DNA of 64,000 nt from positions 1 through 64,000 of the forward strand of contig JALHMQ010000013.1 of the NCBI GenBank assembly GCA_022843955.1. Direction: 5' to 3'. This DNA is from Burkholderiaceae bacterium (GTDB lineage Bacteria > Pseudomonadota > Gammaproteobacteria > Burkholderiales > Burkholderiaceae_F). The notes below the pieces were generated by a model that worked only from the letters and a program-made list of their open reading frames with translations, did not search any database and was not told where the DNA came from. Each line of letters opens with the position of its first letter. The first letter of the stretch is position 1. Of this stretch, positions 1 to 10,902 are shown piece after piece. The position numbers were made by a program, and so were the translations under genes.

Positions 1-68
1 TGGTCCAGGACCAGCCGCACTGCACGTTCTCGCACCTCCGGTGAATACCGCTTGTTCGTCTTGTTCAT
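1..68 (-). CDS. IS3-family transposase OrfA, N-terminal fragment
   Basis: Only the first 22 codons are present. Translation from the ATG at 68 begins MNKTNKRYSPEVRERAVRLV, the familiar start of IS3-group OrfA helix-turn-helix proteins, which bind the element's terminal repeats and are normally joined to OrfB by programmed frameshifting. A GAGAGGA purine run lies a few bases upstream of the ATG. The gene continues beyond base 1, so whether the element is intact cannot be judged. Confidence 0.75.
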   Translation of the reverse strand, partial: MNKTNKRYSPEVRERAVRLVLD

Positions 69-118
69 GACTCCATCCTCTCAAGAATCGGAGTCTCCGG
101 TAAAGCCGGGGCGGTTCA
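1..118 (-). mobile_element. End of an IS3-type insertion sequence (rest outside window)
   Basis: The plus strand at 96-118 reads as the reverse complement of a terminus beginning TGAACCGCCCCGG and continuing into an ACCGGAGACTC motif, a layout typical of IS3-family ends. An OrfA-like reading frame starts 28 bases inside, at 68, and runs out of the window. Only one end is visible, so the inner structure, the second inverted repeat and any target-site duplication cannot be checked. The element appears to have landed in an unrelated reading frame (119-216). Confidence 0.7.
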
Positions 119-216
119 AACCAGTTGCCAACAGGGCCGGTCCCCAACAGATATGAGCCAACTGCGATGGTTGCATAGACCACCGCCGACAGATGCAAAG
201 TTCGAGCGCGTGACAT
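119..216 (-). pseudogene. N-terminus of an unidentified membrane protein, cut by the IS element
   Basis: Translation from the ATG at 216 begins MSRARTLHLSAVVYATIAVG and continues SYLLGTGPVGNW before entering the IS end at 118. The first 30 residues form a short basic start plus one hydrophobic helix, as in a signal anchor. A GGAG box lies 5 bases upstream of the ATG, which supports this frame over the overlapping ones. About 33 native codons survive; the frame then stays open through IS sequence to the window edge. No family can be assigned from so little. It lies downstream of the exporter fragment and may once have belonged to the bacteriocin locus. Confidence 0.4.
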
Positions 217-286: not shown

Positions 287-478
287 CTAGGGCATGTTCT
301 CAAGGCCGGGCCATGCGCCGGGTTGTGTGCCCTGCGTGCTGTCCCCTGCCGCTGAGTCATATATGGGAAAGCGGCGGCGAAGCTCAGCGAGGTCGGCGTG
401 GTAGCCGAGCGCCGAGGCGATCATCGCCAGACAGGCGAGGCCGCATTCGACGCTTTCAGATTGCAGCGTTGTACGCAT
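287..478 (-). pseudogene. Truncated C39 peptidase / bacteriocin ABC exporter remnant
   Basis: The first 38 or so residues match the start of C39 peptidase domains of bacteriocin-processing ABC exporters: LQSESVECGLACLAMIA contains the catalytic Cys in its usual ECGLACLAM setting, followed by the DLAELRRRFP segment. Full exporters of this class run to about 700 residues (C39 domain, six membrane helices, ATPase). Here the similarity stops near base 364 and the frame ends 24 residues later. A stop codon lies just upstream of the ATG in frame, so the 5' side may be altered too. Such enzymes cut leaders after a double glycine, which is what the precursor at 977-1195 carries. This copy cannot work as an exporter. 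Confidence 0.75.
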
Positions 479-618: not shown

Positions 619-879
619 CTACTCTGGTGCATGGAATCGCTTCTCGCACGCTCTCCAGAGCATTGCGCCATATCCCCAACCGATAGCTAAGAAGACTGCG
701 CCAAGAGCCAAGGCCAATCTAAGCGTTAAATCTGCGCCGAACGCAACCGCGCCAAGTAGAGCGAATACGCCCACAGGGAGCGCGAACCGCAGGAATCCGA
801 AAGAGATCACGAACCTAACGAAACCAAGCTGCCGAATCTCAGCCCAGCGACTCATCAGCTTTTGCTCACTTGCCAGCAT
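619..879 (-). CDS. Small two-helix membrane protein, candidate bacteriocin immunity protein
   Basis: An 86-residue protein starting at the ATG at 879, with an AGAGGA ribosome-binding site just upstream. A longer upstream extension in the same frame is Arg-rich and lies antisense to the bacteriocin gene, so it was not used. Residues about 18-46 and 51-75 are hydrophobic and could form two membrane helices between charged ends (N-terminal EQKLMSRW, C-terminal ACEKRFHAPE). I recognise no family. Its position directly after a double-glycine bacteriocin precursor, behind a hairpin, and its size are typical of immunity proteins, so that role is inferred from context only. Its base composition looks less GC-rich than the housekeeping genes. 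Confidence 0.55.
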   Translation of the reverse strand: MLASEQKLMSRWAEIRQLGFVRFVISFGFLRFALPVGVFALLGAVAFGADLTLRLALALGAVFLAIGWGYGAMLWRACEKRFHAPE

Positions 880-919
880 GGTGTCCTCTAGAAGAACAGG
901 AAGATCAACCAACAGAAGC

Positions 920-942
920 AGGCAGCCCACCGGGGGCTGCCT
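920..942 (-). terminator. Hairpin between bacteriocin and putative immunity gene
   Basis: A perfect 9-bp inverted repeat (AGGCAGCCC / GGGCTGCCT) with a 5-base loop, followed on the minus strand by a T-rich stretch (GCTTCTGTTGG). It lies 35 bases after the bacteriocin stop codon and 41 bases before the next start, where it could act as a partial terminator that keeps downstream expression below that of the precursor. The T-tract is interrupted, so full termination is uncertain. Confidence 0.5.
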
Positions 943-976
943 AGCGTTGCGCAACTCGATCCGTTTCCGCCGCCGC

Positions 977-1195
977 CTAGTTGCAGCCGCCAATCGCTCC
1001 GCCGATCGCCCCGCCGACGGCGCCCGCGACAGCCCCTTTCGGGCCGCTGAATGCGCCGGCGATTGCGCCTCCAACGGCGCCTCCTGCGATCGCGTTTGCG
1101 CACTTTTGCGCAGGGCTGTCGTTCTTCGTCCCTTTCGGTTGGCCTCGACCGCCACCGGACACGATGTCGAATTCGACCACTTGCAGGTTTCTCAT
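977..1195 (-). CDS. Double-glycine-leader, glycine-zipper bacteriocin (class II type) precursor
   Basis: A 72-residue precursor from the ATG at 1195, with an AGGAG box 8 bases upstream; longer upstream starts lack this. Residues 1-15 (MRNLQVVEFDIVSGG) are a classic double-glycine leader with the hydrophobic spacing recognised by C39 peptidases. The predicted mature peptide of about 57 residues has a polar basic start (GRGQPKGTKNDSP), then a Gly/Ala-rich hydrophobic stretch full of GxxxG steps (AGGAVGGAIAGAF, GAVGGAIGGAIGG), and ends Cys-Asn. Cys32 and Cys71 could pair. This resembles Blp-type and two-peptide class II bacteriocins that insert into membranes. Neighbours fit: HlyD adaptor upstream, putative immunity gene and C39 exporter remnant downstream. 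Export would need a transporter encoded elsewhere. Confidence 0.8.
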   Translation of the reverse strand: MRNLQVVEFDIVSGGGRGQPKGTKNDSPAQKCANAIAGGAVGGAIAGAFSGPKGAVAGAVGGAIGGAIGGCN

Positions 1196-1244
1196 TGAGC
1201 TTCTCCTAAAGTGTCTGCGCCGATCAAAGGGGCGGCGTCGTCCC

Positions 1245-1345
1245 CTAACGCTGCTCACATGTCCGAGCGAACTCGATAAGTAGTTCGAACAACCACTCGA
1301 TGACGTGCCGTCGGTCTTGGATTACCGCGGCATCGAATCGCACAA
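1245..1345 (-). pseudogene. Duplicated C-terminal tail of an HlyD-type adaptor gene
   Basis: The minus strand at 1345-1245 reads [20 protein letters not shown] then EFARTCEQR and a stop. This is nearly the same as the C-terminus of the intact adaptor at 1374-2639 ([20 protein letters not shown] then GAAQRRA). It lies immediately downstream of that gene's stop and has no start or body. It looks like the remaining end of a second adaptor copy after recombination between the copies. Confidence 0.7.
1283..1336. repeat. Direct repeat copy A (partner at 1406-1459)
   Basis: Bases 1283-1336 and 1406-1459 match at 49 of 54 positions in the same orientation, 123 bases apart. The partner lies inside the 3' end of the intact HlyD-type gene. 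Most substitutions fall at codon third positions, so the copies diverged after duplication while the sequence was coding or came from a related adaptor gene. Confidence 0.85.
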
Positions 1346-1373: not shown

Positions 1374-2639
1374 TCACGCACGCCGCTGCGCTGCCCCGAT
1401 CAGGGGCTCGAACAACCACTCGATGACGCGCCGTCGGTCCTGGATGACGGCGGCATCGAGGGTCATACCGGATCTCAGCGGCGTCGTGTCGCCATACGCG
1501 ACGACGTGCTGAGCGGAAAGGTTGACCGTCAGGCGATACAGCCCTTCGGCGGTGGTGGCGCTCGCCAGGTGAGCCAGAGCGGCCGGAAGCTGCGCCGGTG
1601 CCACCGGGCTGCGGCTTACCGCAGCGACCGTCCCCGACTGCAGCCCGAACTTCTGGTACGGAAAGGCGGCGTACCGCAGTTGCACTTCCTGCCCCACGGC
1701 GGCGAAGCCCACCGTGCGGCTCGGCGCGAACAGATGCGCCTGCAGCGGCGCGCCGGCTGGCGCGATGGACGCGAGGAGTTGACCCGCCTGCACAGGCTGC
1801 CCTGCGGCCAGCGCCAGCAACGTCACATTGCCGTCGCGCGGGGCGGTGATGACTTGGGTGCGCCGACCCTCGTTCTCCGCTGCTTCCTGCGCCAGAGCGG
1901 CCACTGCGCGATCCACCTGCGCCAGCTCGGTCTGCAACTGCGCGGCCAGCTGCGCGCCCTCGGCGGCGAGTGTGGCGCGGTCGCGGGCCAGCGCAATGCG
2001 GGTGCGGATCAGCTGCTGCACGCGCGTCTCCGCCTCGATCAACTCTTGCTGCTGCACCTGAGCCTGCGTGGCCGACAAAAAGCCGGAGGTAAGCAACTGG
2101 TCGACGCGCGCCGCCTGCTGATGGGCCAGGGTGAGGCGACGATTCGCCAGCGCGATCTCGTCGTCGGCGCGGCGCAGTTCTGCATCCATCGCCTGCACGC
2201 GCGCCGCCAGTGAATGCTGCTGCAGCCGCACCTGCGCGCCGCGCAGCGTCCGCTCGGCTTCCATGGCCGAGCGGCGAGACTCGATCTGCTGCGCCACCTG
2301 AGCGCCGACGTCGCCGGCACCTGTGGCGCGGTCCAGCGCCAGCACCATCACCACGTCGCCCTGCCGCATGACCTGACCCTCGGCCACACGCAGTTCCGCC
2401 ACGCGGCCAGCGGCGGCAGCATGCAGGTCCATCTGGCCACCCACCGGCACCAGGATGCCGCTGACCTGCGCCTTGCGCGTGACCTCGCCGATGAAGGCAT
2501 ACATCAGCAGTGCACCGGCGAGTAACACGGCACCCGCGGTCAGCCCCCACCACGACAGCGAGGTGTTCAGCCGCACGCCGCCGAGCCACTGGCCGGCGCG
2601 GGCTTGCATCACTTCGGGTCGAAAGAGGGGAGAGCTCAT
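1374..2639 (-). CDS. HlyD-family periplasmic adaptor of a bacteriocin exporter
   Basis: A 421-residue membrane-fusion protein, close to the length of CvaA-type adaptors (about 410). A cytosolic start of about 30 residues precedes one inner-membrane helix (about 31-50). Then comes a lipoyl/barrel half-motif around 60-100 ([18 protein letters not shown]), a long Ala/Gln/Glu/Arg-rich coiled coil (about 113-268), the second lipoyl half ([20 protein letters not shown]) and a C-terminal beta region. These proteins bridge a C39-type ABC exporter to an outer-membrane channel for type I secretion of small peptides. It heads the minus-strand bacteriocin island, and no strong ribosome-binding site is visible before the ATG at 2639. 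The gene looks complete, unlike the exporter fragment downstream. Confidence 0.85.
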
Positions 2640-8933: not shown

Positions 8934-9653
8934 ATGAGTTGGCCAGGCAAATGCGTCGGCCCGTCCGCGGCAGTGGACGTCCGGACCCCGACACCGCCAC
9001 CGGCGAAGGCTGCCGCCGTGCTCTCCGTCCGTTCCCTTGTTCATCGCTACGCTGACCGCACTGTGCTGCGCCTGCCGGCACTCGATCTGGCGGCGGGCGA
9101 GCATTGCGTGCTGCTTGGCGCTTCCGGGTCGGGCAAGACCACCTTGCTGCATGTCCTGGCAGGCATTCTTCGGCCCAGCGAGGGCGCGGTGCTGCTCGAC
9201 GACGCCAACCTGTACCAGCCGCCGCGCGGCGACCGCTGGCGCGCCGAGCGCATCGGCGTGGTGCCGCAGCGGCTGCATCTGATCGACAGCCTGAGCGCGC
9301 TCGACAACGTGCGTCTGGCGCAATCACTGGTCGGTCGTCGCGACGATGCTGCCGCAGACCAGACGCTGACGGCGCTGTCCCTGGGCGAGCAGCGCCTGAG
9401 TCGCCCGTCGCGACTGTCAACCGGCCAGCAGCAGCGGATCGCGATCGCGCGTGCGGTGGTCAACCGGCCGCGTCTGCTGCTAGCCGACGAGCCGACCTCG
9501 GCGCTCGATGACGGCCACGCAGATCGCGCCATCGACCTGCTGATCCAGGCAGCAGATGCGTGCGGCGCCTTGCTGGTGGTGGCGACCCATGATGCGCGCG
9601 TGCGGCGCCGCTTTGCGCGCGTGATCGACCTGTCGCCGGCAGTCACGCCATGA
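8934..9653 (+). CDS. ABC transporter ATP-binding protein (LolD/MacB type)
   Basis: A 239-residue ATPase with Walker A GASGSGKT (about 62-69), Q-loop VVPQRL, signature LSTGQQQR, Walker B LLLADEPTSALD and switch His in VATHD, so it looks catalytically complete. The first 30 residues are Pro-rich and not typical, and a GTG near 9017 giving LSVRSLVHRYADR could be the real start. It pairs with the FtsX-type permease downstream (49-base gap), and the set continues with a DUF3299 gene. ABC/permease/DUF3299 sets occur in zinc-regulated Zrg-type loci; the substrate is inferred, not seen. Confidence 0.85.
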   Translation: MSWPGKCVGPSAAVDVRTPTPPPAKAAAVLSVRSLVHRYADRTVLRLPALDLAAGEHCVLLGASGSGKTTLLHVLAGILRPSEGAVLLDDANLYQPPRGDRWRAERIGVVPQRLHLIDSLSALDNVRLAQSLVGRRDDAAADQTLTALSLGEQRLSRPSRLSTGQQQRIAIARAVVNRPRLLLADEPTSALDDGHADRAIDLLIQAADACGALLVVATHDARVRRRFARVIDLSPAVTP

Positions 9654-9702: not shown

Positions 9703-10902
9703 ATGAACGCGTTGCGCTACGTGCTGGCACAGCTGGCGCGGCGGCCACTGTCGACCGCGCTGTCGGTGCTGCTGCTGGCGCTGGGCATCGCCACGCTGGT
9801 GTTCGTGCTGCTGGTGCAAAGCCAGCTCACGCGCGGTCTGACCCGCGATGCACAGGGCATCGACCTGGTGGTCGGTGCCAAGGGTTCACCGCTTCAACTC
9901 ATCCTCTCGGCCGTCTATCACGTCGACGTGCCCACCGGAAACGTGCCGCTGGCCGCACTGGCGCACGTGCGCGGCAATCGGCTGGTGAAGTCGGCGATAC
10001 CGGTCTCTCTTGGCGACAACTTTCGCGGATTCCGCCTGGTGGGTACCGAGCCGGCGCTGATCGAACATTACGGCGGTCGCCTGGTCAATGGCACGCTCTG
10101 GCAGGGTCGTCTGCAGGCCGTGATCGGAGCTGAGGTTGCGCGCACAACAGGCCTGGGCGTCAGCCAGGGTTTCTTCGGCGCGCACGGTCTGTCGCCGGAC
10201 GGGCCGGTCCATGACGATGCCGAGTACCGCGTGGTCGGCGTGCTGGCGCCGACTGGCACGGTGCTCGATCGGCTGCTGCTGACCGACCTTGAAAGCGTGT
10301 GGTACGTGCATGAGGGTGAAGCGACCGATCCGGTCGAGCGCGAGATGCTGGAAGCGGAGCGCGAGGTCACGGCCATTTTGGTGCAGTACGCGGCGCCGCT
10401 GGCGGCGGCGATCGTGCCGCGACAGATCAATGCCGAGCCGCGCCTGACCGCAGCCGTGCCGGCCAACGAGGTTGCGCGGTTGTTCGCGGTGGCCGGCGCC
10501 GGGATCGACACCATGCGCGCGTTTGCCAGCGTTCTGCTCGGCTCGGCGCTGCTGGCGTTGTTCGTCGCCCTGATGAATGCGCTGGAGGAAAGGCGCTATG
10601 ACATCGCCATCTTGCGGCTGCTCGGGGCCACGCGGTTGCGCGTGGCGGCACTGTTGCTGCTCGAAGCGTGGCTGCTCGCTGCCGCCGCGCTCCTGCTGGG
10701 AGTACTGATGGCGATGGGCGCGGTCGCCGTGGTTGGCTCGTGGCTGGCCGAGGCGCGGTCGTTCGTCTTGTCGCCTTTCGACTGGCCAGCCGAGGTCGCC
10801 TGGGCGCTGGCCCTGGCATGGGGTGTCGCCACCTTGGCCGCCGTGCTGCCGGCCTGGCGTGCCAGCAGGATGCAGATTCACGCGGCACTGGCCGAGGGCT
10901 AG
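9703..10902 (+). CDS. FtsX-like ABC transporter permease
   Basis: A 399-residue inner-membrane protein with the MacB/LolC layout: one N-terminal helix (about 18-40), a large periplasmic domain, and three C-terminal helices (from about 270) with the FtsX-domain signature ALEERRYDIAILRLLGATR. It should dimerise and work with the ATPase just upstream. Such pairs usually move lipids, peptides or metal-related substrates by mechanotransmission rather than through a channel. Some pairs followed by DUF3299 genes are zinc-regulated, which fits the upstream COG0523 gene, but direct evidence is lacking. Confidence 0.87.
   Translation: MNALRYVLAQLARRPLSTALSVLLLALGIATLVFVLLVQSQLTRGLTRDAQGIDLVVGAKGSPLQLILSAVYHVDVPTGNVPLAALAHVRGNRLVKSAIPVSLGDNFRGFRLVGTEPALIEHYGGRLVNGTLWQGRLQAVIGAEVARTTGLGVSQGFFGAHGLSPDGPVHDDAEYRVVGVLAPTGTVLDRLLLTDLESVWYVHEGEATDPVEREMLEAEREVTAILVQYAAPLAAAIVPRQINAEPRLTAAVPANEVARLFAVAGAGIDTMRAFASVLLGSALLALFVALMNALEERRYDIAILRLLGATRLRVAALLLLEAWLLAAAALLLGVLMAMGAVAVVGSWLAEARSFVLSPFDWPAEVAWALALAWGVATLAAVLPAWRASRMQIHAALAEG

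Follow-up and report, generated by a model that had tools for sequence, protein, structure and literature searches.

A glycine-zipper peptide with a double-glycine leader, probably a class II bacteriocin, in a variable hlyD–C39 slot of Burkholderiales

The window, the whole 64,000-nucleotide stretch of DNA analysed here, starts at base 1 of contig C13 of the study genome (G000; 5.54 Mb, 63 contigs) and carries near this edge, on the minus strand, a gene for a 72-residue precursor (977..1195; ATG at 1195, stop codon at 979–977), the plus-strand reading of the same interval being an unrelated frame. A ribosome-binding site, AGGAG (1203..1207, minus strand), lies 7 bases 5′ of the ATG. Residues 1–15 form a leader that ends in Gly14-Gly15 and has hydrophobic residues at −4 (V12), −7 (F9) and −12 (L4), and residues 16–72 form a mature part of 57 amino acids that starts GRGQPK, contains Cys32 and Cys71 and ends in Cys-Asn. 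Glycine makes up 19 of the 72 residues and 30% of the mature part, which has a further 23% Ala and a net charge of about +4; ten strict GxxxG pairs all fall between residues 32 and 71. The original prediction had correctly described this peptide, its double-glycine leader, its good ribosome-binding site and its GxxxG-rich mature region ending in Cys-Asn; it did not name the strand, and made no mention of the insertion sequence, the gene that may confer immunity, the truncated C39 5′ end or the cassette nature of the locus.

An AlphaFold2 single-sequence model built with no alignment and of low confidence (mean pLDDT 64.5) gives the precursor helices at residues 28–50 and 52–71. If the turn is placed at about residue 51, Cys32 precedes it by 19 residues and Cys71 follows it by 20. 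Because the two cysteines are nearly equidistant from this turn, an antiparallel hairpin of these low-confidence helices would bring them together, so that the previously suggested Cys32–Cys71 disulfide could form on geometric grounds.

The precursor gene stands 178 bp behind, and on the same strand as, a complete gene for an HlyD/CvaA-type membrane fusion protein of 421 residues (1374..2639, minus strand; HlyD_3, E 4.7e-14; 79% relative in the genus), which reaches 124.5 bits against the type_I_hlyD model TIGR01843, under its cut-off of 208.65. On its other side hlyD is faced by dapF (start at 2819 on the plus strand; DAP_epimerase, 212 bits), as it is in a second genome of the genus, G002. 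Read along the minus strand, the order is hlyD, a copy of the hlyD end, the precursor, a gene for an 86-residue protein, a copy of a C39 exporter-gene end, a second small ORF and the end of an insertion sequence. The first copy, just behind hlyD (1285..1336, minus strand), was recognized by sequence comparison as 52 bp matching the hlyD 3′ end (1408–1459) at 92%. The second (363..472, minus strand) is a 110-bp copy (90%) of a C39 5′ end, cut after about codon 37, which aligns by blastn to positions 314–423 of contig C27 and matches Peptidase_C39 positions 4–39 of 133 with an E value of 4.7e-8.

The 86-residue protein (619..879, minus strand; GC 55%) is a small membrane protein and a candidate for immunity, encoded by a gene that starts 97 bp downstream of the precursor and has its own ribosome-binding site. 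It contains two hydrophobic stretches, modelled from the single sequence as two long helices at 3–46 and 51–82 (pLDDT 76.9). Searches of Pfam and NCBIfam returned no match for it except one holin model at E 0.34, and none of 66 other genomes of the family contained a match. Known microcin immunity proteins share little sequence, according to the accessible part of one study (PMC9746304), and a protein that belongs to no family would, by analogy, fit that pattern. Between the precursor and this gene, a pattern scan located a 10-bp hairpin (919..943, minus strand) without a clear T run, possibly an attenuator or the end of the mRNA; the region holds three terminator-like sites, against a mean of 1.8 in shuffled sequences. 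No sigma-70-like promoter was found in the region, and the small genes of the locus carry ribosome-binding sites.

The contig edge itself is occupied by the left end of an insertion sequence (1..118, minus strand), the other end of which opens contig C27; from the start of its orfA and from its ends we take it to be IS3-type. It interrupts the second small ORF, of which the 5′ part (119..216, minus strand) retains a start codon with GGAG ahead and one hydrophobic stretch; when the empty site is rejoined across the element, the ORF becomes a single open frame of 73 residues. Contig C27 then carries a complete C39 exporter of 695 residues (311–2398) in which the Cys, His and Asp motifs are present, with residues that we presume from these motifs to be the triad. 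The genome has three left and four right ends of this element, giving 12 possible pairs, and GGTT at the C13 flank end and the C27 flank start is the sole 4-base match among them; two other pairs, C52/C36 and C60/C19, share 3 flank bases, so every left end has a partner of its own. Moreover, the C27 exporter is 90% identical to the C39 gene that, on one contig of G002, follows hlyD and a cassette. We therefore take C13 and C27 to be neighbours, parts of one operon that appears to have been split by the insertion sequence with a 4-bp target duplication. As the element lies between the precursor and the exporter gene, it may lower exporter expression, which we count against a bacteriocin reading. 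The C39 export context anticipated for the peptide is thus supported by an HlyD and C39 system, and the genome offers 18 matches to TolC-type (OEP) domains. A second hlyD and C39 system also occurs in both genomes (G000:C3:276842-280426 and G002:C17:58831-62365), its HlyD being 33% and its C39 protein 44–45% identical to those of the first; a pattern scan picked up no double-glycine precursor near it.

Profile searches had been proposed as a check, and the two models concerned gave different answers. Against Pfam PF10439, Bacteriocin_IIc, the precursor reaches 30.1 bits, above the cut-off of 27.1, whereas the E492 group microcin model NF051486 gives 13.8 bits, far below its cut-off of 50. The mature part alone accounts for 25.3 of the 30.1 bits, under the cut-off; with the leader shuffled (n=3) the scores were 25.6, 25.6 and 27.7 bits, and with the mature part shuffled behind the intact leader the match was lost in 4 of 4 shuffles, indicating that the order of the zipper gives most of the PF10439 match and the leader the remainder. 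Members of this family, among which we count peptides of the Blp, lactacin F and cerein 7B type, are known mainly from Gram-positives. Glycine-zipper envelope models also match the precursor weakly, a point against the bacteriocin reading, the glycine-zipper 2TM domain PF05433 at 20.7 bits (E 4e-4; cut-off 24.2). Measured against the features that define class II microcins, the leader falls within the range of 15–18 residues with a GG or GA end and hydrophobic positions at −4, −7 and −12, and the glycine content of the mature part lies above the usual 12–26%. A fusion protein is encoded nearby and a TolC-type channel elsewhere in the genome, and the nearby C39 exporter is supplied by C27, linked to the precursor by the target duplication and by synteny and not by a single contig. 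Microcin immunity proteins are small and in most cases have transmembrane helices; the 86-residue candidate, with its two modelled helices, is encoded at the position where such a protein would be expected.

Homologues of the precursor were sought at increasing distance. Among the three genomes of the genus only the study genome has it, and viral contigs and plasmids gave no match. The original prediction had held that the lack of homologues with a conserved double-glycine leader in related genomes would count against it, and half of this came about: a search of 66 other genomes of the family found no homologue of the precursor itself, and double-glycine precursors nevertheless lie between hlyD and C39 in both other genomes of the genus. 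Across the class, 22 other genomes of 369 matched weakly (E 7.6e-4 to 0.0081). Eleven of these 22 matches were inspected by eye and set aside as resembling the precursor in composition only, being other zipper proteins or frames: a double-glycine leader was seen in them just once, as a motif-like case within a lipoprotein-like frame, and a lipobox-like stretch, absent from the study precursor, was present in about four. Of 399 genomes sampled from the order and searched with PF10439, 17 gave matches with E values up to 0.01, and the study genome alone exceeded the cut-off. That neither the mature peptide nor the 86-residue protein has a homologue in the sequences searched weighs against the bacteriocin reading. 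The nearest named relative by HlyD among the matches listed is a Burkholderiales metagenome-assembled genome (JADCGS010000014.1, the same as G002; 78–79%), in keeping with the assignment to a betaproteobacterium made from the DNA letters. No title on double-glycine peptide cassettes of Burkholderiales appeared among the literature matches listed, a search whose scope stopped short of subscription papers and broad class II bacteriocin atlases.

Comparison within the genus is informative for what lies between the two exporter genes. All three genomes have hlyD, a double-glycine precursor, one or more small hydrophobic frames and C39. In G002, a single contig reads dapF (71%), hlyD (78%), cassette and C39 gene (90%) as in the study genome, but its slot precursor is another one, beginning MRRLGNDEIFLVAGG, followed by a 185-residue hydrophobic protein with no Pfam match; the study precursor finds no match in this genome. 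On the sequences of these two genomes, the site appears as an exchangeable cassette slot. The 185-residue protein had looked like a CPBP protein by eye, an identification we dropped given no Pfam match up to E 0.1. In the third genome, G001 (7% contamination), hlyD (42%) and C39 (58%) enclose a small hydrophobic frame and a double-glycine precursor that begins MRDLQNCETSTISGG, and dapF is absent from the 13 kb examined, so that this is probably another chromosomal place and turnover within one locus rests on the study genome and G002. Leaders are 47% identical between the study genome and G002, 53% between the study genome and G001, and 44 to 53% among all three, while outside the leader pairwise alignments extend over at most 16 residues (at most 14 for the study mature part). 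The GC content of the study cassette, 59.7%, is under that of all 1203 overlapping windows of the same size with which it was compared.

The same two genomes share a second, Cys-rich double-glycine peptide with a TTG start and the leader KLLxPQQTKAVAGG (locus L006, contig C27 of the study genome, 2653–2796; locus L044, about 10340–10180). It stands behind the C39 gene in the study genome and between hlyD and C39 in G002, and is followed in both by proteins that are 64% identical to one another; their resemblance to ClpP-type proteases was seen by eye and corresponds to no Pfam family.

Named loci around related hlyD genes, of which the best 80 of 566 were examined, place this arrangement in a broader setting. 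A C39 gene follows hlyD in 72 of the best 80, within 230 bp in 34 and at a distance of 484 to 6345 bp in 38; the other eight have no C39 gene of the required length in the stretch, several of them being ended by contig ends. In 37 of the 38 loci with the longer spacing, the slot has a lower GC content than the average of hlyD and C39, and the mean difference is 8.5 points. A strict scan for double-glycine leaders returned 48 small ORFs in 39 of the best 80 loci and none in reversed sequences; the ORF in L090, which lies at the edge of its contig, resembles by eye a reverse-transcriptase fragment. A narrower scan for double-glycine precursors with two cysteines around a Gly/Ala/Ser-rich core gave 11 rows in 121 stretches and none in reversed sequence. 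Four of these (two of three in L061, and those in L103 and L107) are Ser/Gly-rich, not zipper-like, and were not counted; once the study precursor, listed twice, is removed, L045, L056, one row in L061, L112 and L158 are kept, and a further precursor of this build, with no Pfam match, was recognized by eye in L141. Judged from these ORFs, the Cys-zipper-Cys plan recurs and its sequence does not.

Other genes of the slots were surveyed in a set of 92 mechanically called ORFs, 91 from the slots of named loci and one from the study locus. Beside the double-glycine precursors are protease-like companions, namely TraB/PrgY/GumN proteins (5 of the 92; for example L105:10641-11600, E 5.7e-36), Rce1-like proteins (3), M16 peptidases (2) and a rhomboid (1), which might be immunity or peptide-inactivating proteins. 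JmjC_2 and Cupin_8 domains, in 4 of the 92 ORFs each, are a possible hint at oxygenase modification of an exported peptide. In L087, from 3298, a C39 frame behind a double-glycine precursor keeps its start and stops after about 192 residues, apparently a broken system.

Extra copies of the hlyD 3′ or C39 5′ end, which we refer to as scars, are the exception: of the 38 named loci whose slot measures at least 484 bp, three contain them within it, as does the study genome. The C39 scar of the study genome was found separately, the complete C39 gene lying on a different contig; 42 stretches scanned earlier had shown scars in G002 and the study genome only. The three loci are L085 (that is, G002), L141 in an Aquabacterium metagenome-assembled genome and L105 in Undibacterium hunanense. 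In L141 a C39 fragment (9186–9325, 99% to the real gene) is directly followed by an hlyD fragment (9326–9587, 90%), and in L105 a C39 fragment (9835–9950) and an hlyD fragment (9943–10252) overlap by eight aligned bases. Both loci thereby present a fused joint between two cassettes, each with a double-glycine-leader frame, and in both, long matches to hlyD and C39 remain. The strict scan does not include these four frames, which were recognized by eye, and the second one in L141 needs a GTG start; the second cassette contains an Rce1-like protein in L141 (22.6 against a cut-off of 22.4) and a TraB/PrgY/GumN protein in L105. Such a fused joint is what a tandem duplication with its ends in hlyD and C39 would leave, and because the joints, by eye, share few bases, illegitimate joining is suggested; the study genome and G002 would then be arrays of which parts were later lost. 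The scars may instead derive from an inserted piece of a foreign operon. Site-specific cassette insertion, suggested by the two C39 scars of the genus breaking at nearly one codon, was dropped, since the L141 and L105 scars break elsewhere and their joints share few bases by eye.

Taken together, these observations lead us to regard the precursor as probably a class II bacteriocin of the microcin type, whose antibacterial activity we infer from its sequence. The C39 domain of the C27 exporter would bind the 15-residue leader and cut after Gly14-Gly15, and the 57-residue peptide would be pumped out by way of the HlyD adaptor and a TolC channel. Cys32 and Cys71 would pair in the periplasm or outside, stapling two glycine-zipper helices (about 28–50 and 52–71, with a turn at Ser-Gly-Pro) into an antiparallel hairpin. 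In related bacteria, this hairpin would enter the inner membrane and break its integrity, the 86-residue membrane protein would protect the producer, and the precursor and the 86-residue gene would together form one exchangeable cassette between hlyD and the C39 gene.

Double-glycine leaders and C39 exporters serve peptide pheromones too, and TraB and PrgY act on pheromones in Enterococcus. A secreted signalling peptide, with companions that shield the producer from its own response, is accordingly a reading to which the TraB/PrgY/GumN matches in 5 of 92 ORFs, nearly all from hlyD–C39 slots, lend some weight. We consider it unlikely: a 57-residue glycine zipper with 30% Gly is more like a membrane-active class II peptide than a linear pheromone, and an arms race accounts better for the presence of another precursor at this site in the sister genome.

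The locus has also visibly been damaged, with the small ORF between precursor and exporter interrupted by an insertion sequence, fragments of C39 and hlyD lying in it and no promoter-like site found, as would be expected of a decaying, unexpressed remnant. Yet hlyD, the precursor, the 86-residue gene and the C39 gene are all open frames of full or plausible length, the small genes have ribosome-binding sites, and scars occur likewise in L141 and L105, where long hlyD and C39 matches persist, which makes decay improbable. About as improbable is that the precursor is half of a two-peptide bacteriocin, as known for glycine-zipper peptides in Gram-positives, with a partner such as the double-glycine peptide at C27 2653–2796, which is encoded next to the C39 exporter gene and recurs in G002; that peptide is Cys-rich and without zipper motifs, it occurs in G002, where the glycine-zipper precursor finds no match, and two cysteines closing one hairpin suggest a self-contained unit. 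A chance ORF or a glycine-zipper envelope protein, for which the overlap of reading frames in GC-rich DNA and the sub-threshold PF05433 match could be cited, is highly implausible in view of the double-glycine leader, the good ribosome-binding site and the position behind hlyD, the lack of any double-glycine-leader ORF in reversed controls, the loss of the PF10439 match on shuffling and, by eye, the scarcity of such leaders among the 11 inspected weak matches together with the absence of a lipobox from the study gene.

With a bacteriocin as the probable cargo, we further propose, tentatively and with less than even confidence, that the Burkholderiales hlyD–C39 slot is a growing cassette array. 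Tandem duplications ending in the hlyD 3′ and C39 5′ regions would copy the peptide-plus-immunity unit, and every duplicated unit would retain stretches of hlyD and C39 sequence; these stretches would act as homology arms for bringing in unrelated peptide/immunity pairs from other strains by exchange. One exporter would thereby serve several fast-changing bacteriocins, among which the Cys-stapled glycine-zipper hairpin would be one recurrent cargo. To us, this proposed diversification of a cassette array is of greater interest than the peptide itself: the fused exporter-end scars make it possible to read how a bacteriocin/immunity pair may come to join a locus, and the varied double-glycine precursors near HlyD/C39 genes in Burkholderiales, with their candidate immunity genes, are new peptides to try against Gram-negatives.

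Like the study peptide, members of Bacteriocin_IIc combine a double-glycine leader with a glycine zipper. The original prediction had described such peptides as usually coming from lactic acid bacteria, which the class II microcins of Enterobacterales (PMC9746304) and McbC of Moraxella catarrhalis (PMC2761928), as far as the available parts of these sources extend, correct. Class II microcins (MccV, H47 and the E492 group) resemble the peptide in their Gly-rich sequence and leader of 15–18 residues ending in double glycine, and resemble its locus in having a C39 exporter, a fusion protein and a small membrane immunity protein, here a candidate, in the accessible sections of two accounts (PMC11494933, PMC9746304). 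The ten verified examples in those sections are from E. coli and Klebsiella, whereas the study peptide is from Burkholderiales (PMC9746304, PMC11494933). Since then, candidate microcins of a few further groups have been tried, and in plant-associated genera 12 of 23 predicted class II microcins inhibited E. coli, weakly, in the portion of that work available to us (PMC13174018), so that prediction is no guarantee of activity. A close parallel in organization is the Gram-negative mcbABCI locus of M. catarrhalis, which, in the available part of its description, comprises an HlyD-type adaptor, a CvaB-like ABC exporter, a short precursor with a double-glycine leader and a small immunity protein (a candidate in our case), with killing and immunity both tested (PMC2761928). 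There, as that part describes it, the bacteriocin and immunity genes come after adaptor and exporter, whereas the study cassette lies between the two (PMC2761928). Since double-glycine bacteriocins of Gram-negatives are established, the study peptide, as a probable bacteriocin, joins a known kind.
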